Part shown: piece after piece, positions 7,900 through 18,182 of the stretch
Position numbering within the stretch: the stretch's first letter is position 1
Layout of the letters: the number at the start of each line of letters is the position of its first letter
From: an archaeon
GTDB lineage: Archaea > Thermoproteota > Nitrososphaeria > Nitrososphaerales > Gagatemarchaeaceae
Assembly (NCBI GenBank): GCA_021819105.1
Contig: JAKASK010000002.1
Location: 118,992-179,812, forward strand
Direction: 5' to 3'
DNA length: 60,821 nt
Notes under the pieces: generated by a model
Database searches by the model: none
What the model saw: only the letters and a program-made list of their open reading frames with translations
Told to the model about the DNA's origin: nothing
Made by a program: the position numbers and the translations under genes

Positions 7900-9054
7900 G
7901 TGCCCTTCATCTACCGCTCGGTGATCCAGCGTTCTGACCCTACTCCCAAAGCCAGGGAACTGCTGGCCGTGTTCCCGTCGATGGTCAACGACTGCCTGAG
8001 GGCCGGCCTGGAGAAGAAGATGAGTGACTTTCCACGGATCAAGGAACTCTGCTGGCCGAGGATGCGGGAGTATCGCGTGCACGACTCGTACAGGGTCTCG
8101 GCAATGTTCGATGCAGCGAACCTTATCAAGAAATTCCAGACCGACTCCAAGCGGACGAGGGCAGGACTCCCGCGGGTATCCAACGAGTACTTCTCGGCCT
8201 CGCTGGGAGTCTATCTGGAGGCCAAGGAGCTTCTCCTGCCGGGCAACATCAGAACGCCGCTGAACGGCCATACGCTTGCCGTGCTCCGCGCGAAGGGGGT
8301 GGAGGTCGTCTCAGCCACCATGACCCAGGAGACCTGCTCAGTGATCTACCGGAAGTTCGTCCAGGGGGTGGCCCCGCGGGGGATGGTAGCAGTCGACCTC
8401 AACCTGGACAACGTAACGACCTTCGACACCGAAGGGGAGTCGATCGTCTATGACACTTCGGCCCTGTCCCAGATCCACGAAGCCTACCGGAGGGTGAAGA
8501 GCCACTTCAGGCGGAACGATGCCCGGATGAAGGGGACGGTCTGGAGGAAATATGCCAGGCTGGAGCACGACAGGAAACTGGCGGTGCTTCATTCCGTCTC
8601 TTCCGAGATAGTGAAGCGCGCCGCCGCCAAGAAGCAGGCCATAGTCATGGAGGACCTCCGATGGCTGAGAGACATGTACAGGAGGCGCAGCGGCTACAGC
8701 GCATACTATCTCTCCAAGATGAACGCCTGGCCCTTCAGGCAGATCCTGCATCAGCTGGCCTACAAGGCCGAGTGGCTGGGGCTCCCTGTCGTGACGATAG
8801 ACCCTGACTGGACTTCGGAGAAGTGCTGCGAGTGCGACGGGCTGATGGAGGTCCCCCCGGTGGAAGGCATAGTCGTGTGCTCTGTCTGTGGGAACGCCAT
8901 CGACCGCCACCTTAACGGCGCCAAGAACATCCTCAGGAGAGGGCTGAGGTCCGGCCCCGGCTGGTCCGCAGGAGAAGCGGTGACAGGCAGCAATCTCCCC
9001 GGGTGGGAGACCAGGGCCCGAGTGGATGCGGACAACCCAGCGTCTCAGAGATGA
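7900..9054 (+). CDS. tnpB: TnpB (IS200/IS605 OrfB)-type RNA-guided nuclease homologue, third RuvC acidic residue replaced
   Basis: The protein has 384 residues, no frameshift, and the TnpB order: helical N terminus, RuvC-I VDLNLDN (D166), RuvC-II VMEDL (E251), zinc finger C309-x2-C312...C327-x2-C330, and RuvC-III IDRHLNGAKNI. In typical TnpB the last motif is DRDxNAAxNI; here the second Asp is H337. That position is usually the third catalytic acid, so DNA cleavage may be impaired. No tnpA transposase is next to it. The start GTG 7900 follows a GTTATTAG box by about 25 bases, giving it its own promoter. TnpB proteins use a guide RNA made from the 3' end of their element; the hairpin at 9087-9113 is a candidate part of such an RNA. 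Confidence 0.85.
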   Translation: MPFIYRSVIQRSDPTPKARELLAVFPSMVNDCLRAGLEKKMSDFPRIKELCWPRMREYRVHDSYRVSAMFDAANLIKKFQTDSKRTRAGLPRVSNEYFSASLGVYLEAKELLLPGNIRTPLNGHTLAVLRAKGVEVVSATMTQETCSVIYRKFVQGVAPRGMVAVDLNLDNVTTFDTEGESIVYDTSALSQIHEAYRRVKSHFRRNDARMKGTVWRKYARLEHDRKLAVLHSVSSEIVKRAAAKKQAIVMEDLRWLRDMYRRRSGYSAYYLSKMNAWPFRQILHQLAYKAEWLGLPVVTIDPDWTSEKCCECDGLMEVPPVEGIVVCSVCGNAIDRHLNGAKNILRRGLRSGPGWSAGEAVTGSNLPGWETRARVDADNPASQR

Positions 9055-9197: not shown

Positions 9198-11864
9198 TTA
9201 GGACAGTTTCCTTACTAATATTGCTAGCTCTAGTACCAAGGTTATGGCAGCCAACACTGCGACTACGAGGACGTAGGTCGAGGTGTTGGATAGTCCGCTG
9301 GTGTTCGAGGCTGCCTGCTGGGCTGCCGTAGCCGCGTTGTTCGCGGCCGTGGCTGCTGAGGAGGCGCTCGATGCGGCGCCGCTAACCGAGGTTGCGAGTG
9401 ACGTCAACTGGCTTCCGATGTTGGTGACGCTTGTCTGGAGGTTGCCCACGTCGGTCGTGAGCGTGCCTATGCTGGTCTGGATGCTGCTGATGGAGGTCTG
9501 CATGTTCGAGATGGAGGTGGACAGCCCGCTCACGGTGGTCGAGAGGCTGTTCATGGTCGCTGTCAGCGACGCGAAGCCGCTGTAGATGTAGTCGCCGGTG
9601 GTGGTGACGTTGAAGAACCCGTAGGTGGCAGGCGTCGAGAAGTTCCCTTCGCTGGCCTGCTGCAGGAAGCAAGACTGGTAGTACTCACGGCAGTAGAACC
9701 CGAAGTTGACCGGGTTCGGCACGGTTGGCTGCATGCTCGTGTCGATTTCGATCTGGTGTAGACCAGGTCTGAATCCGGCAGAAGTCATGTTGATCACCGC
9801 GTTGCCGTTGAATTGGTTGGTGCCGAGTGCGTTGTTGAAGGTGCTGAGGTAGCCGTGGCTGGCGCTGTCGACGAACACCTGGTAAAGGGTGGTCGGCGAG
9901 AGCCCTTCAGCGTAGGCCGTGACCGAGGACTGGGCGTTGGCGTTGACCGACTGGATGGTGGGACTGCCTGAGGCGCCCACGCAAGAGGTCGATGTGCCTA
10001 CGTCGATGCAGAGAGTCGGGGTGACGAGGAAGGTGTGGTAGGTCGTGGAGTCGGAGGCTGCGTCATAGATGCTTGTCGTCCTGTACCCGTTGACGATGTT
10101 CCCCATGACCGAGGGGACGGTCTCGCCCAGGTTGCTGAGGGTGATGTTGTCCAGCGCATAGACGTAGTGGATGCCCCCGAAGGTCGGGTCTGGGACCGAG
10201 AAGGTCGCAGACGCCAGCGCGCCGGTGGCATCGCTGGTCGTGTTGACCACGTTGTAGGCGTTGAAGTCGTTGGTGGTTATTTCGTTCCAGAAGATGTACA
10301 CACCCGCGTTCGCCGGGAAGCCGAAGCCAGTCACCGTGACTACGGTGTCTGGGCTGCTCGGTGATCCGGAGTCAGGGGTGAGGATGAGCGCTGGGATGAT
10401 GTTGATGGCGAAGACGTAGGGGACGCCATCGGAGGTGATGGTGATGTTGTGGAGTCCGAGCGGGACGTTGGGGACGTTGAAGCCTATCGAGAACAGCCCG
10501 CCCGTGGTGGGCTTGCTGGTCCCGTTGAAGGTCGCGATCACGCCGTACCCGCTGAGTGTCACGGTGAGTGCACCCCCGGTGTAGAAGTTGGAGCCGGTGA
10601 CGTTGATGTCACCGCTGTCGAAGACATTGAGCGCGTAAGGAGATACGCTGGTGCTGAAGTAGGTGATGTCGTTGGCCGCCTGCTGGCCGCTGTCGTTGCC
10701 GACATCGGTGGAGCTCGGATAGTACTGGGGGCCCTTCGAGTCGGTGTAGCTCCCCTGGAACCCTGACTGCAGGAAGTTGAACTGCCTGCTGTTCTCCGCG
10801 AAGTAGGGCCTGAGGCTCTGCTTGTAGTAGTCCTCCTGTGCGAGGTTGAGGATGCCGCCGTTCGTGGTGTCACGGACGTTGGGCTGCCAGGCCGAGGCGT
10901 TGATGTTCACCGTCGGGTAGATGTTCACACCAACCCGCTCGTTGAAGGCCTGCTTGGTGTCGAGGGCCTTGCCAGAGAGGCAGAAGGTCCCTTCGATGTT
11001 TGCAGGGCCGTAGAAGCTGTGGCTGTTGGCTGGCGCCGGGCAGGAGCTGAAGGTCTTCCCTGTGACGATTCCAGTGAACCCTGACCAGGTGCCGTTCTTG
11101 ATGGACGTGATGCCCTCCCAGCTGGTGAAGGAGTAGGCGTAGGTGATGTTCATGTGGACGCCGTTGCCGAACCCTCCGCCCATGATGGTCACCGGGTCAC
11201 CGGCTGAGCCGGAGGCCGGGGTGATCGAAATCCCTGGGAGGATGTTGAGCAGCTGCTTGGCTCCGGCGATGCCGGTGCCTGTGCAGCCAAAGCTGGTGGC
11301 GTTGGACGGAGTCCCGCAGGAGCCGTCGTAGAGCTTGACGTACTGGTAGGACGCGTTCACCAGAGCCGGGATGGGCCCGACGATGGCGTTCTGTCCTATG
11401 AAGTACGGACCGTTGGTGCTAGCGGTTCCGCTCGCCGAGAAGCCTGAGAGTGTGGCAGCGCTCAGCTGCAGCGCCGGGAATGGCCCTGCGTAGAAGATGT
11501 CTCCTGGGCACATCCCTCCCCCGCATGATCCGGGGGACGGGGCGTTATTGATCTGGGCGTTTCCATTCGCTGACAGGTAGAGGTAGATGTTGGCGCCGCT
11601 GAACGTGACGCCGGTGGTGGCCAGAGCGAAGTACGCCGGCTGAACGACGGCTGAACCGTCCAAAGCCGTTACTCCGGCAGTGCCTGCGATGACAGTGACC
11701 GAAGCGGACGCTGGCGTGATGGTCGCTGACCCAGCTGCGTCGATGTTGGAATCAGCCAGAACTGGCGTGCCGGTGATGGTCGCATGCGCCGCGATTGGCA
11801 CAAAGACCATGAGGGCTGAAAGTGCAAGAAGTGCGATGATTAGTATAGAGCTAGTTTTCTTCAT
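9198..11864 (-). CDS. Large secreted, membrane-anchored surface protein (S-layer-like), copy 1
   Basis: The 888-residue product starts with a signal peptide (MKKTSSILIIALLALSALM...AAHA, cut probably near residue 28), continues as a long extracellular region with many N-glycosylation sequons and beta-sandwich-like segments (ITPASGSAGDPVTIMGGGFGNG is typical of IPT/Ig-like folds), then a Ser/Thr/Ala-rich coiled-coil-like stretch, and ends with one membrane helix (YVLVVAVLAAITLVLELAIL) and a short basic tail. That is the layout of archaeal S-layer or stalk proteins. The N-terminal part is clearly paralogous to the protein at 36752-38476 (shared HATITGTP, YLYxSxxGNAxI, LYDGSCG, GTGIAGAKQ). ATG 11864 is preferred to TTG 11888 because it gives a standard signal peptide and a leader of about 33 bases after the TATA box at 11919-11928. 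Confidence 0.82.
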   Translation of the reverse strand: MKKTSSILIIALLALSALMVFVPIAAHATITGTPVLADSNIDAAGSATITPASASVTVIAGTAGVTALDGSAVVQPAYFALATTGVTFSGANIYLYLSANGNAQINNAPSPGSCGGGMCPGDIFYAGPFPALQLSAATLSGFSASGTASTNGPYFIGQNAIVGPIPALVNASYQYVKLYDGSCGTPSNATSFGCTGTGIAGAKQLLNILPGISITPASGSAGDPVTIMGGGFGNGVHMNITYAYSFTSWEGITSIKNGTWSGFTGIVTGKTFSSCPAPANSHSFYGPANIEGTFCLSGKALDTKQAFNERVGVNIYPTVNINASAWQPNVRDTTNGGILNLAQEDYYKQSLRPYFAENSRQFNFLQSGFQGSYTDSKGPQYYPSSTDVGNDSGQQAANDITYFSTSVSPYALNVFDSGDINVTGSNFYTGGALTVTLSGYGVIATFNGTSKPTTGGLFSIGFNVPNVPLGLHNITITSDGVPYVFAINIIPALILTPDSGSPSSPDTVVTVTGFGFPANAGVYIFWNEITTNDFNAYNVVNTTSDATGALASATFSVPDPTFGGIHYVYALDNITLSNLGETVPSVMGNIVNGYRTTSIYDAASDSTTYHTFLVTPTLCIDVGTSTSCVGASGSPTIQSVNANAQSSVTAYAEGLSPTTLYQVFVDSASHGYLSTFNNALGTNQFNGNAVINMTSAGFRPGLHQIEIDTSMQPTVPNPVNFGFYCREYYQSCFLQQASEGNFSTPATYGFFNVTTTGDYIYSGFASLTATMNSLSTTVSGLSTSISNMQTSISSIQTSIGTLTTDVGNLQTSVTNIGSQLTSLATSVSGAASSASSAATAANNAATAAQQAASNTSGLSNTSTYVLVVAVLAAITLVLELAILVRKLS

Positions 11865-11867
11865 GTT

Positions 11868-11883
11868 TACGCTTTGAAGCGTA
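11868..11883. promoter_or_regulatory. Perfect 7-bp inverted repeat in the leader of the surface-protein gene
   Basis: TACGCTTTGAAGCGTA is a perfect palindrome (7-bp arms, 2-base centre) that ends four bases before ATG 11864 and lies within the predicted 5' leader. It replaces a recognisable Shine-Dalgarno sequence. It could be an RNA hairpin affecting translation or stability of an abundant mRNA, or a protein-binding operator. Confidence 0.6.
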
Positions 11884-11918
11884 TACAATGTATTTTCGTA
11901 GAAAGGCCCCCCGACTAG

Positions 11919-11928
11919 TTATATAAGC
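11919..11928 (-). promoter_or_regulatory. TATA box of the surface-protein gene
   Basis: The minus strand reads GCTTATATAA, a near-ideal archaeal TATA element. The usual 26-base offset puts transcription start near 11897, about 33 bases before ATG 11864. It is one of the strongest TATA boxes in the window, as expected for an abundant surface protein. Confidence 0.75.
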
Positions 11929-12122
11929 AGAGTGGACAAATCGTCTATTTCGCGGTTCGTTCGGGGAAAAGACAGCCTGAATCTGGCCCCTTCGACCGTA
12001 GCCCACGCAAGTCCGGCTGTTTCCACGAGATGAGCCGCAATCGGTGGCTTAAAGGGCCAAAGAGCCCTGGAAAAGGCACCTTGGCTGGCGAGCCTACGGG
12101 GGGTCCGACACTACCTGGAAAC

Positions 12123-13964
12123 TCAGGCTGTGCTCGCTATCTCGAATATCATGACGTCCCCGTTCTTGTAGACGAGGGTCAACCCCGCCGACTGGGGGAA
12201 GGTGTACCAGGGGAGGGACTGGCTGTCGGAGACGACGGTGCCGTTGCCCGTGTCGACGTCGTAGCGGGTGACGACGATGTAGCTTTCTCCGTGGGCCCTG
12301 GCGAAGGAGATGGAGTCGTTGGGCGAGGCCGAGTAGTGGTCGCTGGTGATCCTGTCGATCACAGTCCTTGCGAAGATGAACCTGGGGTCGGTCACCGAGA
12401 GGACGAGGGAAGTCGGCGGGGTGTTCTGACCCATCCAGGTCATCGCCTGGAGCAGCTGGCTCTGGACCTGGGCCTCCTGCTGGGTGCCGACGGTGGCGTT
12501 CTGGGCCGTGGACCAAGCCCACCCGTTGTAGACGATGGGGACGAGGAAGAGGAGGCAGACGGCGACCATCCCCACGCGTCGGAGGCCAGGCGACTTCGGA
12601 GCCCGCAGGCGCACCTTCTTCGGGACCGCCGACGGCCCGCGGGAGAGGAGCGAGTCGAGACCGTAGCCGGCGAGCAGGATGACGGGGACGACCGCCTCGA
12701 AGCCGAACCTCCAGGCGCCGCCGTTTTCGGGCGACACGGCGAGGAGGGCGAAGAACCAGACCCCCAGCAAGAGGGCGGGGAGGCTCCGGGAGCGGCAGGC
12801 CCAGTAGAGCCCGAGGGCGAGGAGGGCGAAGAGAGCCACGAACCCGGGGTCGTTGGAGACGTCGACGGCGATGAAGGCGACAGAGGGGATGGGGCTCAGT
12901 AGCCGCGAGACGTAGGTCGTGAACCCCGGCGAGGAGAACTCGTTGTACGAGATGTTGAGGATGTTGGTGACGGTGCTGTGGAACACGAGGGCCCCCAGGG
13001 CGCCTGGGGCGAGGAAGACCGCCGTCGCCAGGAGATGCCCCCTGGCCGAGGGCCTCCTCAGGAGGCCGACGGCGACGGAGAAGAAGAGGAAGGCGCCGAA
13101 GGTCGAGATGGCGGTGTAGTGGGAGAAGTAGCCGGCGACGAGGAAGACCCCCGAGGAGAGCCACACCGAGGGGGACCTGTACCCGGACGAGAGGTCGAGG
13201 AAACCGACGACGAGGAGGAGCTCGAGGAGGACCCCGACGAAGTTGGCGTAGAGCCCGTCGTTCAGGACCAGGGGGGTCCAGACGGTCCCGGAGAGGGCGA
13301 AGATGGCGGCCGCGAAGAGGGCGGCCCTCCTGCTGGCGAAGAGCCGCTTCGCGACGGCGTACACGAAGAAGGGGGAGAGGACCGTCAGCAGGGCCATGGT
13401 GTGCCTTACAGTCGCCAGGGGGAGGCCCCCGACGGCGAGCAGGGCCATGCCCAGCTGGTAGTCCGCGGCCCCGTAGACCAGCATCCGGGGGACGGAGGAC
13501 AGGGTCCCGAGGGTCAGGCCGGTGGCCTGGACCTGGTGGACCAGGAAGTCGGGGTTGAAGTAGGGGAATATGGGGAACTTTCCAAGATACAAGGCGATGA
13601 CGGCGGCGACGAAGGCGGCGAAGAAGACGGTGGCGAGGTCGTCGCGGGCGAGCCTGGGGGGCCCTGTGAACCGCCTCCGCCGGGCATAGGAGACCCCCAG
13701 GGCGGCGACCCCGACGAGGACCAGGAAGTAGACGAGCCCTATGCCTGCGCCGTAGAGGAATCCTACGCCCAGCCCCAGGGTCTTGAGCGCGAAGACAACC
13801 GTGTCCACGGCGATGCCGACCCCGAAGGAGAAGCCCAGCCGGTCTGCAAGGGTGTCGTCGTCCTTCCACCTTCCCAGGACCTCCCAGAGGCCGTAGCCGG
13901 GGACGAAGATGGCGGCGAGGTAGACGACGTAGCCCGGGAGGAACTCGACGGGGAGGCTGGTCAC
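12123..13964 (-). CDS. Polytopic membrane protein, GT-C-like, tandem copy 1
   Basis: The product has 613 residues with about a dozen predicted membrane helices and a C-terminal extracytoplasmic domain of about 130 residues. Conserved with the two neighbours are LPVEFLPGYVVYLAAI at the N terminus, FNPDFLVHQVQATGL, YGAADYQLGMALLAVGG, FASRRAALFAAAI, DGLYANFVGVLLELLLV and SHYTAISTFG. An acidic residue with a nearby His in the first large loop, many helices and a soluble C-terminal part resemble GT-C glycosyltransferases that use lipid-linked sugars outside the cell; this is inference. GTG 13964 matches the N termini of the paralogues and overlaps the stop of the upstream mini-ORF as GTGA; ATG 13967 is an alternative. 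Confidence 0.78.
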   Translation of the reverse strand: MTSLPVEFLPGYVVYLAAIFVPGYGLWEVLGRWKDDDTLADRLGFSFGVGIAVDTVVFALKTLGLGVGFLYGAGIGLVYFLVLVGVAALGVSYARRRRFTGPPRLARDDLATVFFAAFVAAVIALYLGKFPIFPYFNPDFLVHQVQATGLTLGTLSSVPRMLVYGAADYQLGMALLAVGGLPLATVRHTMALLTVLSPFFVYAVAKRLFASRRAALFAAAIFALSGTVWTPLVLNDGLYANFVGVLLELLLVVGFLDLSSGYRSPSVWLSSGVFLVAGYFSHYTAISTFGAFLFFSVAVGLLRRPSARGHLLATAVFLAPGALGALVFHSTVTNILNISYNEFSSPGFTTYVSRLLSPIPSVAFIAVDVSNDPGFVALFALLALGLYWACRSRSLPALLLGVWFFALLAVSPENGGAWRFGFEAVVPVILLAGYGLDSLLSRGPSAVPKKVRLRAPKSPGLRRVGMVAVCLLFLVPIVYNGWAWSTAQNATVGTQQEAQVQSQLLQAMTWMGQNTPPTSLVLSVTDPRFIFARTVIDRITSDHYSASPNDSISFARAHGESYIVVTRYDVDTGNGTVVSDSQSLPWYTFPQSAGLTLVYKNGDVMIFEIASTA

Positions 13965-14074
13965 CATTGGGGGTCCACGAGGTCCCGCCGGACGGACGAG
14001 GGCCGGCGCCCCTGCACGCCTTCCTCCGGAGGAGCTGCCGGGCGGGCCGGGAGCTCTGGGGTGGCGGCTTTCAT
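13961..14074 (-). CDS. 37-codon leaderless mini-ORF coupled to membrane protein copy 1
   Basis: The ORF starts at ATG 14074, about 30 bases from the centre of the conserved TATA box, as expected for a leaderless transcript. Its TGA (13961-13963) shares bases with the GTG start of the membrane protein. The peptide begins MKAATPELPARPAAPPEE and is Pro/Arg-rich with no membrane helix. It has no sequence likeness to the mini-ORFs before copies 2 and 3, so its position rather than its product seems conserved. It may load ribosomes that re-initiate on the main gene. Confidence 0.5.
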   Translation of the reverse strand: MKAATPELPARPAAPPEEGVQGRRPSSVRRDLVDPQW

Positions 14075-14101
14075 CGGAAGAGAAGGTCTCGGCTCACGGC
14101 A

Positions 14102-14118
14102 GTTATAACCTGATTGGG
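14102..14118 (-). promoter_or_regulatory. Conserved promoter of membrane protein copy 1
   Basis: The minus strand reads CCCAATCAGGTTATAAC. GGTTATAAC fits a BRE/TATA element, and the same 17 bases occur before copy 2 (16126-16142) and, with one base missing, before copy 3 (18167-18182). In each case an ATG follows at 27-28 bases from the box edge. Confidence 0.75.
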
Positions 14119-14157
14119 CAGCGCCAGGCAGGCCCCCGGCGGGCCGCCCCCTGGACG

Positions 14158-16014
14158 CTATCCGCTCGGCGTGACTTCGAAGATCATCACGTCGGTGTTG
14201 TTGTAGACCATGGCGATGCCGTTCTGGGAAGGATAGGTGTACCACGGGAGGTTGGTGCTGTAGAAGTCCGGGGCGAGGGTGGACAGGCTGAAGCGCACGT
14301 CGAAGTGGGTGACTATGATGTACTGCGCGCCAAGCTGGTCGGCGTAGGTTATCGCCTGGGGGGCGTTTCGGAAATATTGGTAGGTGGTGTTCCTGTCGAT
14401 GACCGCTCGGTCGTATTCGAACCTCGGCTCGGTGACGGACAGAAACTTCGACCCCGCCGGCGTGTTCTGCCCCATCCAGCTCATGGCATGGAGGAGCTCC
14501 CCCTGAAGCTGCGCCTCCTGGCTCGCGTTCGCCGTCACGTTCTGCACCATGAACCAGGTCGGGCTCCCGGCAACCGCGGGGACCAAGAACAGCAGGGCCA
14601 CGACCACCGAGCTGAGCCTGGGCGGGCCGCCCCCCCTGGCAGCCTTCAGCTTGCTTCGCCTGACGGCGGTCCGCGGAGCATACTCGGGGAGAAGCGCATG
14701 GAGCCCGTAGCCGGAGAGGAGGAGGAGCGGGATCGCCGCTTCGAAGGAGAAGCGCCACGCCAGGTAGTCCTCAGGGGCGGCCACCAGGATGGCGACGAAC
14801 CAGAGCGCCAGGAGCAGGGCAGGCACGTACCTGGACTTGTACCCCTTGTAGAGCGCGACGGCCAGAAGCGCCATCAACGCGACGAAGCCAAGGTCGTTGG
14901 AGACGTCCACCGCGATGTAGGCGAGGGCCGGGATGGGGCTCAGCAGGCCGGACAGGTATGTGCTCAGGACCACGGGGCTCCCCACGGTGTAGGAGATCGC
15001 CAGAATGGTCCCCAGGGTCTTCTCGAAGACGAGGGCGCCGACGGCCCCGGGTGCGAGGAACGCTGCCCCGACTGCGAGGTAGCTCTTGTACCCGGGCCGC
15101 CTGAGGAGCGCCATCCCGAGCCCGAAGATCAGGAACGAGCCTAGTATCGTGATTACCGTGTAGTGGGAGAAGTAAGACGCGACGAGGATCGCTCCGTCGG
15201 CGACCCAGGCGGTCCGGGACCGAAGGTTGGACGAGAGGTCGAGGAAGGCGCTCACGAGGAGCACCTCGAGGAGGACCCCGACGAAGTTGGCGTATAGGCC
15301 GACGGCGTACACCATCGGGACCCAGACTATCCCAGAAAGGGCGTAGAGGGCGGTGGTGAAGAGGGCGGCCCTCCTGCTGGCGAAGATCCTGCTGGACGCG
15401 GAGAAGACGAGGAAGGGAGAAAGCAGCACCATGATGGCCATGGTCCGCTGAGCAGTCAGGAGGGCCCAACCGCCCACCGCGAGGATGGAGGCGGCGATCT
15501 GGTAGTTGCCTGCGCCGTAGAGCAGCATCTTCGGGACGGTCACCACGGCCCCCGTGATGAGCCCCGTCGCCTGGGTGGCATGGGCGGCGTAGTCGATCTG
15601 ATAGTCGGGGAAGTAGGGGTACTTCGCGAAGTAGACGTAGATGGCGGCGGCCAGGACCGCCACCATGGCGAACACGGCGGCGTCGTAGAGGGCGAAGGAA
15701 GGCGGCCTGGCGAAGGACCTCCGCCGGAGGTATGAGGCGCCCAGGGCCGCGACGCCCAGGAAGACCATGAGGTAGACCACGGATATTCCCATGCCGGCGA
15801 GGCGGAACCCACCGACCCCGACGCCGGCCGTCTTCAGGGCGTAGACCACGGTGTCTGCCGACAGCCCCAGACCGAAGGAGTACCCCGCCCGCTCTACCAG
15901 GGTGTCCCCCTCCTTCCACCGCCCCAGCAGCTCTCCCAGCCCGTAGCCGGGGACGAAGATGGCCGCGAGGTAGACGACGTAGCCCGGGAGGAACTCGGGA
16001 GGGAAGCCCGTCAC
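14158..16014 (-). CDS. Polytopic membrane protein, GT-C-like, tandem copy 2
   Basis: This 618-residue paralogue of the flanking copies keeps FPPEFLPGYVVYLAAI, DYQIDYAAHATQATGL, YGAGNYQIAASILAVGG, FASRRAALFTTALYALSG, VGLYANFVGVLLEVLLV and SHYTVITILG. It is the most divergent of the three: the segment after the first helices and the C-terminal domain differ most. GTG 16014 aligns with the other N termini (MTGFPPEF against MTGLPVEF); GTG 16026 is possible. A mini-ORF ends four bases upstream. It probably acts in the membrane on the same class of substrate as its paralogues, perhaps with another specificity. Confidence 0.77.
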   Translation of the reverse strand: MTGFPPEFLPGYVVYLAAIFVPGYGLGELLGRWKEGDTLVERAGYSFGLGLSADTVVYALKTAGVGVGGFRLAGMGISVVYLMVFLGVAALGASYLRRRSFARPPSFALYDAAVFAMVAVLAAAIYVYFAKYPYFPDYQIDYAAHATQATGLITGAVVTVPKMLLYGAGNYQIAASILAVGGWALLTAQRTMAIMVLLSPFLVFSASSRIFASRRAALFTTALYALSGIVWVPMVYAVGLYANFVGVLLEVLLVSAFLDLSSNLRSRTAWVADGAILVASYFSHYTVITILGSFLIFGLGMALLRRPGYKSYLAVGAAFLAPGAVGALVFEKTLGTILAISYTVGSPVVLSTYLSGLLSPIPALAYIAVDVSNDLGFVALMALLAVALYKGYKSRYVPALLLALWFVAILVAAPEDYLAWRFSFEAAIPLLLLSGYGLHALLPEYAPRTAVRRSKLKAARGGGPPRLSSVVVALLFLVPAVAGSPTWFMVQNVTANASQEAQLQGELLHAMSWMGQNTPAGSKFLSVTEPRFEYDRAVIDRNTTYQYFRNAPQAITYADQLGAQYIIVTHFDVRFSLSTLAPDFYSTNLPWYTYPSQNGIAMVYNNTDVMIFEVTPSG

Positions 16015-16018
16015 AGCC

Positions 16019-16099
16019 TCAGTCACCCAAGGCGGTGGGTCCGCTGGGACCGTTTCCGGATGAAATCGTGACTGCGGTCGCGGGACCTCTCAGGACCAT
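16019..16099 (-). CDS. 26-codon leaderless mini-ORF before membrane protein copy 2
   Basis: ATG 16099 lies 27 bases from the edge of the TATA box. The frame encodes MVLRGPATAVTISSGNG and a few more residues, and stops at TGA 16019-16021, five bases before GTG 16014. The sequence is unrelated to the other two mini-ORFs. Position relative to promoter and main start is the conserved property. Confidence 0.45.
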   Translation of the reverse strand: MVLRGPATAVTISSGNGPSGPTALGD

Positions 16100-16125
16100 C
16101 GGGGTTGAGAGGGGGAGCCTCGGCC

Positions 16126-16142
16126 GTTATAACCTGATTGGG
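16126..16142 (-). promoter_or_regulatory. Conserved promoter of membrane protein copy 2
   Basis: The minus strand has the same CCCAATCAGGTTATAAC as before copy 1, with no mismatch over 17 bases, although most of the leader that follows is unlike copy 1. Confidence 0.75.
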
Positions 16143-16179
16143 GAGACGGGCCTCGGGGGGAGTGGGCGGCTCGCGGGCG

Positions 16180-18030
16180 CTAGGCGCCTGCGGAGATTTC
16201 GAAGATCATCACGTCGGTGTTGTTGTAGACCATCGTCAGCCCGCTCTGAAGAGGGTAGGTGAACCAGGGGAGGGTCGTGTCGTTGGTGTCTGACACGGAG
16301 GTGCCGTTTGTCGTGACGACGTCATGGCGGGTGACGACGATGTACCTCTCTCCGTGGAGAGTGGCGTAGGCGATGGCACCCGAGGCAGTCGGGGAGTAGT
16401 AGTCGCTGGCGATCCTGTCGATCACGACCCTGGCGAAGATGAACCTGGGGTCGGTCACGCTCAAGACCGTGGAAGTAGGCGGGGTGTTTTGGTCCAGCCA
16501 GGCCATGGCCTGGAAGAGGGCGCCCTGGACCTGGGCCTCCAGCTGCGTCCCTCTGGTCGAGCTGTTGGCGGTCCCGGCTGCCTGCCCCTGGGCAGCGATC
16601 GGGACCAGGAAGAGGAGGCAGACGGCGACCATCCCCACACGGCGCAGGTTCGCCGAGCCGGGAGCCGGGAGCCTCATCTTCTTCGCATGGGCCGGCGAGG
16701 GGGGGTGAGAAAGGAGGGAGTCGAGGCCGTAGCCGGCGAGCAGGATGACCGGGACGATGGCTTCGAAGGCGAACCTCCAGGCGCCGCCGTTCTCAGGGGA
16801 TGCGGCGATGAGGCCGACGAGCCACGCCGCCATCAGGAAAGTGGGAAGGTGCCTGGACCTGTAGGCCCAGTATAAGGCGACGCCGAGGAGCGCGAAGAGG
16901 GCCACGAACCCGGGGTCGTTGCCGAGGTCGGAGGCTATGTAGGCGACCGCAGGGACGGCGCCGAGGAGCTGCGAGAGGAAGGTAGTGAGCGGAGGTCGGC
17001 CCAGGTAGACATAGGAGGAACTCAGGACCTGAAGGAGCCAAGATTGGAACAGGATGGCTCCAAGCGCCCCCGGGGCGAGGAACGCGGCGGACGCCAGGAG
17101 ATACCCCCTGGACCCTGGCCTCCTGGAGAGACGGGCTGCCAGTGCGAAGATCAGGAACCCCCCGAAGAGGGAGAGGACGGTGTAGTGGGAGAGGTAGCCT
17201 GCGACGACGATCGTACCGGAGGAGAGCCAGATCGAGGCGGAACGGTAGCCGGAGGCCAGGTCGAGGAAGGCGACCACCAGGAGGAGCTCGAGCAGCACTC
17301 CTACGAAGTTCGCATAGAGCCCGGTATACAGCACCATGGTAGACCAGAGGGTCCCAGAAAGCGCGTAGATGGCGGCCGCGAAGAGGGCGGCCCTGCTCCC
17401 GGAGAAGAGCTTCCTGGCGACGGCGTACACGAGGAAGGGGGAGAGGACCAGGAGGACGTCCATGGTGTGCCTTACGGTCACCAGGGAGAGTCCGCCCACG
17501 GCGAGCAGGGCCATCCCCAGCTGGTAGTCCGCCGCTCCGTAGATCAGCAGATTGGGGACGGTTGCCTGGGTCCCTTGGATGAGGCCGGTGGCTTCGGCTG
17601 TGTGGACCAGGAAGTCCTGACTGAAGTACGGGAAGAACGGGAACTTCGCGAAGTAGAGCGCGGTGACGGCGGCCATGAAGGCGGCGAGGAGGATGACGAC
17701 GAAGTCGTTTCGGGTGAACGATGGAGGTCTTGTGAAGCGCCTCCGCCTCACATAGGACGCTCCCAGGGCGGCGAGCCCAAGGAAGATGAGGAAGTAGTCG
17801 ACCCAAGTGCCTGCGCCCAGAAGCGCTGGGACCCCCAGGCCCATGGTCTTGACCGCGAACACCACCGTGTCTACGGCTATGCCGACGCCGAAGGAGAGGC
17901 CGAGCCGGTCTGCAAGGGTGTCGTCGTCCTTCCACTTCCCCAGGGCCTCCCAGAACCCATAGCCAGGGAGCAAGATGGCGGCAAGATAGGTTGCATAGCC
18001 CGGGTAGAATTCGACGGGAAGGCCGGTCAC
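16180..18030 (-). CDS. Polytopic membrane protein, GT-C-like, tandem copy 3
   Basis: The product has 616 residues and is closest to copy 1. Shared stretches include KWKDDDTLADRLG, GVGIAVDTVVFAVKT, FSQDFLVHTAEATGL, YGAADYQLGMALLAVGG, GSRAALFAAAIYALSG, LYANFVGVLLELLLV, SHYTVLSLFG and a C-terminal VVIDRIASDYYSPTA domain. About twelve membrane helices precede the soluble C-terminal part. GTG 18030 is the start; it overlaps the TGA of the mini-ORF as GTGA. Three tandem copies with matching promoters show repeated duplication of a unit consisting of promoter, mini-ORF and membrane protein. Role in glycan transfer to the surface proteins is inferred from the neighbourhood. Confidence 0.78.
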   Translation of the reverse strand: MTGLPVEFYPGYATYLAAILLPGYGFWEALGKWKDDDTLADRLGLSFGVGIAVDTVVFAVKTMGLGVPALLGAGTWVDYFLIFLGLAALGASYVRRRRFTRPPSFTRNDFVVILLAAFMAAVTALYFAKFPFFPYFSQDFLVHTAEATGLIQGTQATVPNLLIYGAADYQLGMALLAVGGLSLVTVRHTMDVLLVLSPFLVYAVARKLFSGSRAALFAAAIYALSGTLWSTMVLYTGLYANFVGVLLELLLVVAFLDLASGYRSASIWLSSGTIVVAGYLSHYTVLSLFGGFLIFALAARLSRRPGSRGYLLASAAFLAPGALGAILFQSWLLQVLSSSYVYLGRPPLTTFLSQLLGAVPAVAYIASDLGNDPGFVALFALLGVALYWAYRSRHLPTFLMAAWLVGLIAASPENGGAWRFAFEAIVPVILLAGYGLDSLLSHPPSPAHAKKMRLPAPGSANLRRVGMVAVCLLFLVPIAAQGQAAGTANSSTRGTQLEAQVQGALFQAMAWLDQNTPPTSTVLSVTDPRFIFARVVIDRIASDYYSPTASGAIAYATLHGERYIVVTRHDVVTTNGTSVSDTNDTTLPWFTYPLQSGLTMVYNNTDVMIFEISAGA

Positions 18031-18140
18031 TGGCTCGGTCCTCCAAAGAGCTCAGGGTCGGGAGAGGACTCCGTGGTCGTTGCTCCCTTCACAAAGAGGC
18101 CCGCCAGGGAGCCGAGGAGGTCCCCGTAGGAGCTCGCCAT
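18027..18140 (-). CDS. 37-codon leaderless mini-ORF coupled to membrane protein copy 3
   Basis: ATG 18140 lies 27 bases from the TATA edge. The peptide begins MASSYGDLLGSLAGLF and ends at a TGA overlapping the GTG start of the membrane protein. It has the same length as the mini-ORF of copy 1 but no clear sequence match. Confidence 0.5.
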   Translation of the reverse strand: MASSYGDLLGSLAGLFVKGATTTESSPDPELFGGPSQ

Positions 18141-18166
18141 CGGAGATGAAAGCCGACGGGCGGCGC

Positions 18167-18182
18167 GTTATAACCGATTGGG
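18167..18182 (-). promoter_or_regulatory. Conserved promoter of membrane protein copy 3
   Basis: The minus strand reads CCCAATCGGTTATAAC, the copy 1/2 element with one A missing between the upstream CCCAATC block and the GGTTATAAC box. Spacing from the box to the ATG is unchanged. Confidence 0.75.

Follow-up and report, generated by a model that had tools for sequence, protein, structure and literature searches.

The window under study is a stretch of 60,821 nucleotides from an uncultured Nitrososphaerota archaeon, whose assembly is incomplete (65%), has 63% GC and amounts to 914 kb. On its minus strand lie three tandem paralogous genes for polytopic membrane proteins of ~615 amino acids, and each unit runs in the same order, that is CCCAATC(A)GGTTATAAC, an ATG, a short ORF (hereafter mini-ORF) and the start of the main gene. 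The features of the three units, with mini-ORFs read by translation and given with the proportion of shuffled leaders showing the same arrangement, are:

18167-18182 (-), promoter box of copy 3, CCCAATCGGTTATAAC (BRE/TATA), PWM score 9.9
18027-18140 (-), mini-ORF 3, ATG, 37 codons, TGA within GTGA (shuffles, 1.2%)
16180-18030 (-), main gene 3, GT-C glycosyltransferase-like membrane protein, GTG start, GGAGG 9 nt upstream
16126-16142 (-), promoter box of copy 2, CCCAATCAGGTTATAAC, PWM score 8.4
16019-16099 (-), mini-ORF 2, ATG, 26 codons, TGA 4 nt before GTG 16014 (shuffles, 2.3%)
14158-16014 (-), main gene 2, start GTG 16014, alternative in-frame GTG 16026
14102-14118 (-), promoter box of copy 1, CCCAATCAGGTTATAAC, PWM score 7.5
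13961-14074 (-), mini-ORF 1, ATG, 37 codons, TGA within ATGGTGA (shuffles, 0.5%)
12123-13964 (-), main gene 1, start GTG 13964, alternative ATG 13967, no Shine-Dalgarno motif

A preliminary description of this DNA had reported three boxes, mini-ORFs of 37, 26 and 37 codons, a GTGA overlap of mini-ORF stop and main start in copies 1 and 3, and a near-abutment in copy 2, and we found all of these to be present. It gave the distance from box to ATG as 27-28 bases; our counts from the box end are 27, 26 and 26 bases in copies 1, 2 and 3. The distance from ATG to GTG is identical in copies 1 and 3 (110 nt). The junction of copy 1 places an in-frame ATG ahead of the GTG, and the second in-frame GTG of copy 2 lies upstream of the first and overlaps the end of the mini-ORF. 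Shine-Dalgarno-like motifs stand ahead of main starts 2 and 3, copy 1 being without one.

The box has exactly these three matches in the assembly. With A or T at one TATA position, it was found in 2 of the 30 genomes scanned from the genus, in both cases ahead of the homologous gene. A wider regulon was rejected, as the extended box is confined to this gene family within the genus.

The main genes and their neighbours

Two kinds of evidence bear on the identity of the main proteins. First, matches to the Pfam family PMT_2 fall near the cut-off (26.6 versus 26.1 bits for copy 3 and 25.5 for copy 1, with none for copy 2). Second, a structure model of medium confidence (pLDDT 62, pTM 0.66) was searched with Foldseek, and the best folds were the oligosaccharyltransferase STT3 (OST), archaeal AglB, DPY19 and ALG9, all of them GT-C enzymes, with TM-scores of 0.2-0.4 only. 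A sequence search against solved structures gave no match. Because PMT_2 matches lie near the cut-off and GT-C folds are among the model's best matches, the main genes are likely, but not proven, to encode GT-C glycosyltransferases.

Genes nearby encode a phosphodiesterase-family protein, an ABC transporter and an AMP-binding ligase, and parts of this neighbourhood are retained in relatives. Beside the glycosyltransferase-like genes, 9198-11888 (-) encodes a large secreted-looking protein with a C-terminal coiled coil and a hydrophobic end, possibly an S-layer or stalk protein, with no clear family. Just downstream of a TATA box before this S-layer-like gene (11890-11935, -) we noticed a near-palindrome, TGGACAAATCGTCCA (or TGGACGAAATGTCCA), which is also present upstream of several homologues in relatives (L008 ~1087-1102, L009 ~46-60 and L010 ~1173-1190) and looks like a putative operator. 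A transposon-type OrfB protein with a Cas12f1-like TNB domain (TnpB-like) is encoded at 7900-9054 (+).

First genes in this lineage look leaderless

We learned the promoter from the regions upstream of 945 host genes (genome G000), called with a simple home-made codon-based caller whose start calls are imperfect. In the resulting motif, AA.GCTTATAT.C, the TT is most frequent at 29-31 nt ahead of start codons, and the same peak was recovered in G005, a congeneric genome in one contig, and over 400 kb of G009. Because the TATA motif peaks ~30 nt before start codons, first genes look leaderless in this lineage. Shine-Dalgarno 5-mers precede 28% of operon-internal genes versus 6% of leadered first genes, the latter being the background level. 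A like pattern is known from Haloferax, with the Shine-Dalgarno motif used for re-initiation rather than for first initiation (PMC6728339).

In the window units, the TT lies 33-34 nt before the mini-ORF ATG, a few bases more than the genome peak of ~30. Since this spacing exceeds the leaderless peak, a leader of 1-5 nt is as likely as none, and the spacing suggests that mini-ORF transcripts would carry 0-5 nt of leader rather than strictly none. The earlier claim of a leaderless mini-ORF is supported by sequence comparison in the form of leaderless or nearly so.

The arrangement is kept in a clade of homologues

The homologues in the public collection come from metagenome-assembled genomes (Thaumarchaeota, now Nitrososphaerota). 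In the tree, the window copies and homologues from five other genomes form a clade with 100/100 support. We analyzed eight leaders of this clade, namely the three window copies, G001, G014, G009a and the two of G019, and in all eight a promoter-proximal start codon opens an ORF that ends at the main start. The codon that opens it is ATG in the window copies, GTG in G019 and TTG in G001, G014 and G009a. In the relatives, mini-ORF stops lie 4-17 nt before the main start, overlap it by 8 nt in G009a and, in G014, are in frame with no canonical start after them. G001 and G009a have weak promoter boxes (scores of 3.7-3.8), and the main starts include weak codons (GTG, TTG, even CTG). The only plausible start of the G019a main gene is a CTG (L009, near position 434), where its paralogue G019b has TTG.

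The preliminary description had singled out close relatives with the same promoters as the place where mini-ORFs might be missing; relatives keep the arrangement, the two with almost the same box included.

Outside the clade, the box lies 31-35 nt before the main start in five of seven lineages (G009b, G004, G033, G063 and G061; G049 not counted), so the main gene itself is probably leaderless there, judging from this spacing. G009b has a weak mini-ORF candidate besides, and G062, also outside the clade, has a mini-ORF of 13 codons that opens with TTG and ends 17 nt before the ATG of its main gene; G067 is ambiguous. In the simplest history, the promoter of the clade's ancestor would have moved upstream, with a leaderless mini-ORF taking over as the entry point.

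One exception concerns G014 and G006, in which the mini-ORF is in frame with the main gene and a single UAG stands between them, two codons after a conserved GTG (L007 ~1480-1520, +, and the matching place in L006, -). The next ATG, GTG or TTG comes only several codons past the beginning of the conserved region, at a point well within the first transmembrane helix. Both genomes have the UAG in common despite one SNP in the leader; a non-canonical start, readthrough or decay are possible. A general reading of homologues as pseudogenes was rejected: apparent internal stops vanish once the match is trimmed so as to end with the gene, and only the UAG of G014 and G006 stays.

The arrangement exceeds chance expectation

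The same features could arise from a duplicated promoter followed by an ordinary 5' untranslated leader, the mini-ORFs being chance frames and the main genes being translated via a Shine-Dalgarno or other leader-dependent route. Long open frames come with GC-rich DNA, the motifs before main starts 2 and 3 would provide such a route, and the units are tandem duplicates, with a residual leader identity between copies 1 and 3 of 41% versus 29% for shuffled sequences. We compared the leaders with two null models. First, with the promoter kept constant and only the leader shuffled, the arrangement recurred in 0.5% (copy 1), 2.3% (copy 2) and 1.2% (copy 3) of shuffles, and in 0.1-0.5% for the window copies if only ATG starts were counted. 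For each of the seven clade leaders tested in this way the value was 0.5-2.5%, and it was 1.7% for G062. Second, in a scan without fixed promoter, in which the promoter was shuffled too, p was 0.0025-0.03 for each of the eight clade leaders. Fisher's combination over these eight gives 1.7e-10 if they are independent, which they are not fully, as the window copies are one family and the G019 copies another; with one leader per lineage in four lineages (0.0053, 0.0217, 0.012 and 0.0247, promoter-fixed null) it gives ~3e-5. The three-copy arrangement is beyond chance.

The rarity of the arrangement among shuffles of each leader, its presence in all eight clade members across diverged lineages and the lack of a Shine-Dalgarno motif at copy 1 all speak against an ordinary leader, which we regard as unlikely.

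Position is conserved and the peptide is not

That the position of the mini-ORF and not its product is kept, as the preliminary description had put it, agrees with our comparison: the mini-peptides of the clade are unrelated to each other, with no similarity among the three window paralogues, while the architecture is retained in relatives. The paralogue pair of G019 allows a closer view. Identity between the two is 95% over 318 upstream columns, 89% in the main gene and 69% in the mini-ORF, so that the mini-ORF has diverged by 31%, the main gene by 11% and the upstream region by 5%. The 35 substitutions in the mini-ORF are spread over codon positions as 14/9/12, without indels, and both mini-ORFs start with GTG, have 37 codons and stop at the identical place, one with TAA and the other with TGA. 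Open frame, stop and start have thus outlasted 31% divergence, another point against an ordinary leader; because simulated drift preserves all three in 8.5% of runs, this pair alone is modest evidence. The divergence is sharply local (L009 versus L017, alignment A2, columns 319-432) and could come from relaxed constraint, a mutation hotspot or conversion of the flanks.

A second alternative is that the mini-ORFs are real, fast-evolving small protein partners of the glycosyltransferase-like enzyme, the coupling being ordinary operon structure. Some promoter-proximal short ORFs elsewhere in these genomes are clearly small genes (a zinc-ribbon protein, a membrane peptide), which lends this reading some weight. 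Against it, the peptides of the three paralogues are dissimilar, the codon score of the mini-ORFs is near zero versus 0.49 for real genes, and dN/dS in the G019 pair is not clearly below 1 and is similar in other frames. The true frame does score best of three in eight of eight mini-ORFs, by a small margin in some. We therefore rejected a function of the peptide, which has neither similarity nor a protein-like codon score or substitution pattern, and consider small protein partners very improbable.

Coupled short ORFs are enriched before other genes

We scanned G000 together with G005 (1.2 Mb) and G009 (0.4 Mb), ~2.5 Mb in all, for start codons 29-36 nt after a promoter that open a short ORF ending -12 to +8 nt from the start of the next gene, excluding the window family and counting one event per gene. 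Such coupled short ORFs precede 29 of 83 genes versus 14.2 expected (p 3e-5), about a twofold excess, and the exact 4-nt overlap occurs 11 times versus 4.9 expected (p 0.007). Five control offset windows gave no pooled excess, G005 alone being mildly raised at one offset. A first genome-wide test had looked very strong for ATG starts, and the effect came to about twofold after removal of the family and addition of two more genomes. Part of the excess consists of genuine small genes such as those named above, so true entry mini-ORFs are fewer than the excess. One short ORF (41 amino acids in G005) ending GLAGLAILLLFSKKKI is similar in two genomes and lies just upstream of a HAD-like gene; it is probably a genuine unannotated small membrane protein:

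G005 C1 763521 (-) and G000 C11 152273 (-) (strand-oriented coordinates), short ORF ending GLAGLAILLLFSKKKI

The mini-ORFs might instead be regulatory uORFs or attenuators, whose translation would sense an amino acid, stress or membrane load and set the dose of the membrane protein. Their position at the 5' end and their coupling to the main start are as in leader-peptide systems. The unrelated peptides without codon runs, the substitutions without protein-like pattern in the G019 pair and the enrichment of the same layout before other genes weigh against this idea, to which we give little credence. Folding of the three leader RNAs was no better than that of shuffles (z 1.07, -0.44 and 0.89), and an Rfam search of the leaders gave no match. 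A riboswitch, a structured leader or a leader-peptide attenuator was rejected on the lack of an Rfam match, a folding signal and a conserved peptide or diagnostic codon run. Because other genes, too, have this architecture ahead of them about twice as often as expected, a route for ribosome entry is a simpler reading than dosage control. Sequence comparison supports the earlier interpretation in part, namely the leaderless or nearly leaderless mini-ORF, position over product and retention in relatives; its suggestion of dosage control of membrane proteins found no support, as nothing points to regulation.

A proposed route for ribosome entry

The best explanation, and in our judgement a fairly probable one from the sequence comparisons, is that a leaderless mini-ORF couples ribosomes to the main gene. 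Transcription from the TATA box would yield an mRNA whose 5' end coincides with the start codon of the mini-ORF or lies a few bases from it. Where first genes look leaderless and rarely bear a Shine-Dalgarno motif, as in this lineage, this 5'-terminal start codon would be the ribosome entry point. After reading the mini-ORF, ribosomes would terminate at the GTGA overlap, or a few bases short of the main start, and then re-initiate at the main start codon, which is a weak one. The peptide would be a by-product, selection keeping the promoter-proximal start, the open frame and the stop at the main start. At copies 2 and 3, direct initiation at the main start is possible because Shine-Dalgarno-like motifs precede it. 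Other points that weigh against the coupling are the TTG of several relatives, which may or may not serve as a start on a leaderless transcript, the weak boxes of G001 and G009a and the exception of G014 and G006.

We more tentatively propose a general, product-free entry module: a gene whose transcript starts upstream would keep a leaderless mini-ORF, as the 5'-terminal start would be the usual place of ribosome entry in this lineage, and this may have evolved separately in archaea and mycobacteria. In this broad form the idea is possible, though doubtful.

If the proposed coupling is true, the coupled leaderless ORF of mycobacteria would extend to archaea, with comparative evidence of a selected architecture and an unselected peptide. 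It also provides a concrete way to test how ribosomes in archaea get to genes that lack a Shine-Dalgarno site and are not leaderless, and it cautions against annotating such short ORFs as proteins unless other evidence supports this.

Comparison with known systems

The literature searched contained no account of coupled leaderless mini-ORFs from an archaeon. The combination of a leaderless coupled ORF with ATGA-type coupling appears to be new in archaea, on evidence that is weak because coverage of the literature was incomplete.

Two known systems have a short ORF upstream of a gene. In Escherichia coli, a 5'-terminal uAUG opens a uORF and can affect expression of the gene behind it (Beck et al. 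2016, PMC4965119); the 5'-terminal uORF is shared, but the main gene there is preceded by a Shine-Dalgarno leader of its own, to which the uORF is added. A 2016 dRNA-Seq paper described uORFs of 15-31 amino acids in Haloferax volcanii, in long 5'-UTRs between transcription start and gene (PMC4983044). These are archaeal short ORFs too, but they lie in leaders of 150-250 nt, and their coupling and conservation were not tested there.

In Haloferax volcanii, gene pairs that overlap by ATGA are read by termination-reinitiation, the downstream gene being translated by ribosomes that have completed the upstream ORF (Huber et al. 2019, PMC6728339). Those pairs are likewise archaeal and overlap by 4 nt, as do copies 1 and 3 with GTGA, whereas copy 2 has a 4-nt gap. 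Both cistrons are real genes in Haloferax, whereas here the first is a mini-ORF without a conserved product.

Mycobacterial genomes are enriched in leaderless small ORFs that an RTGA overlap couples to the gene behind them, and the position of these ORFs is kept as the peptides diverge (Shell et al. 2015, PMC4633059, Fig. 6). Like these ORFs of 5-50 codons with a 5'-terminal start, the mini-ORFs described here keep the linkage without the peptide and are accompanied by a genome-wide excess. The mycobacterial system is bacterial, documented by mapped starts and ribosome profiling, and limited to RTG starts, whereas ours is archaeal with a promoter inferred from sequence. Compared with the RTG/RTGA of mycobacteria, the window copies have ATG, with GTGA in copies 1 and 3, whereas some relatives have TTG and a stop that is sometimes a few bases off. 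The arrangement looks like a ribosome entry ramp of the mycobacterial kind, although an RTG start and an exact RTGA overlap are found in only part of the present family.
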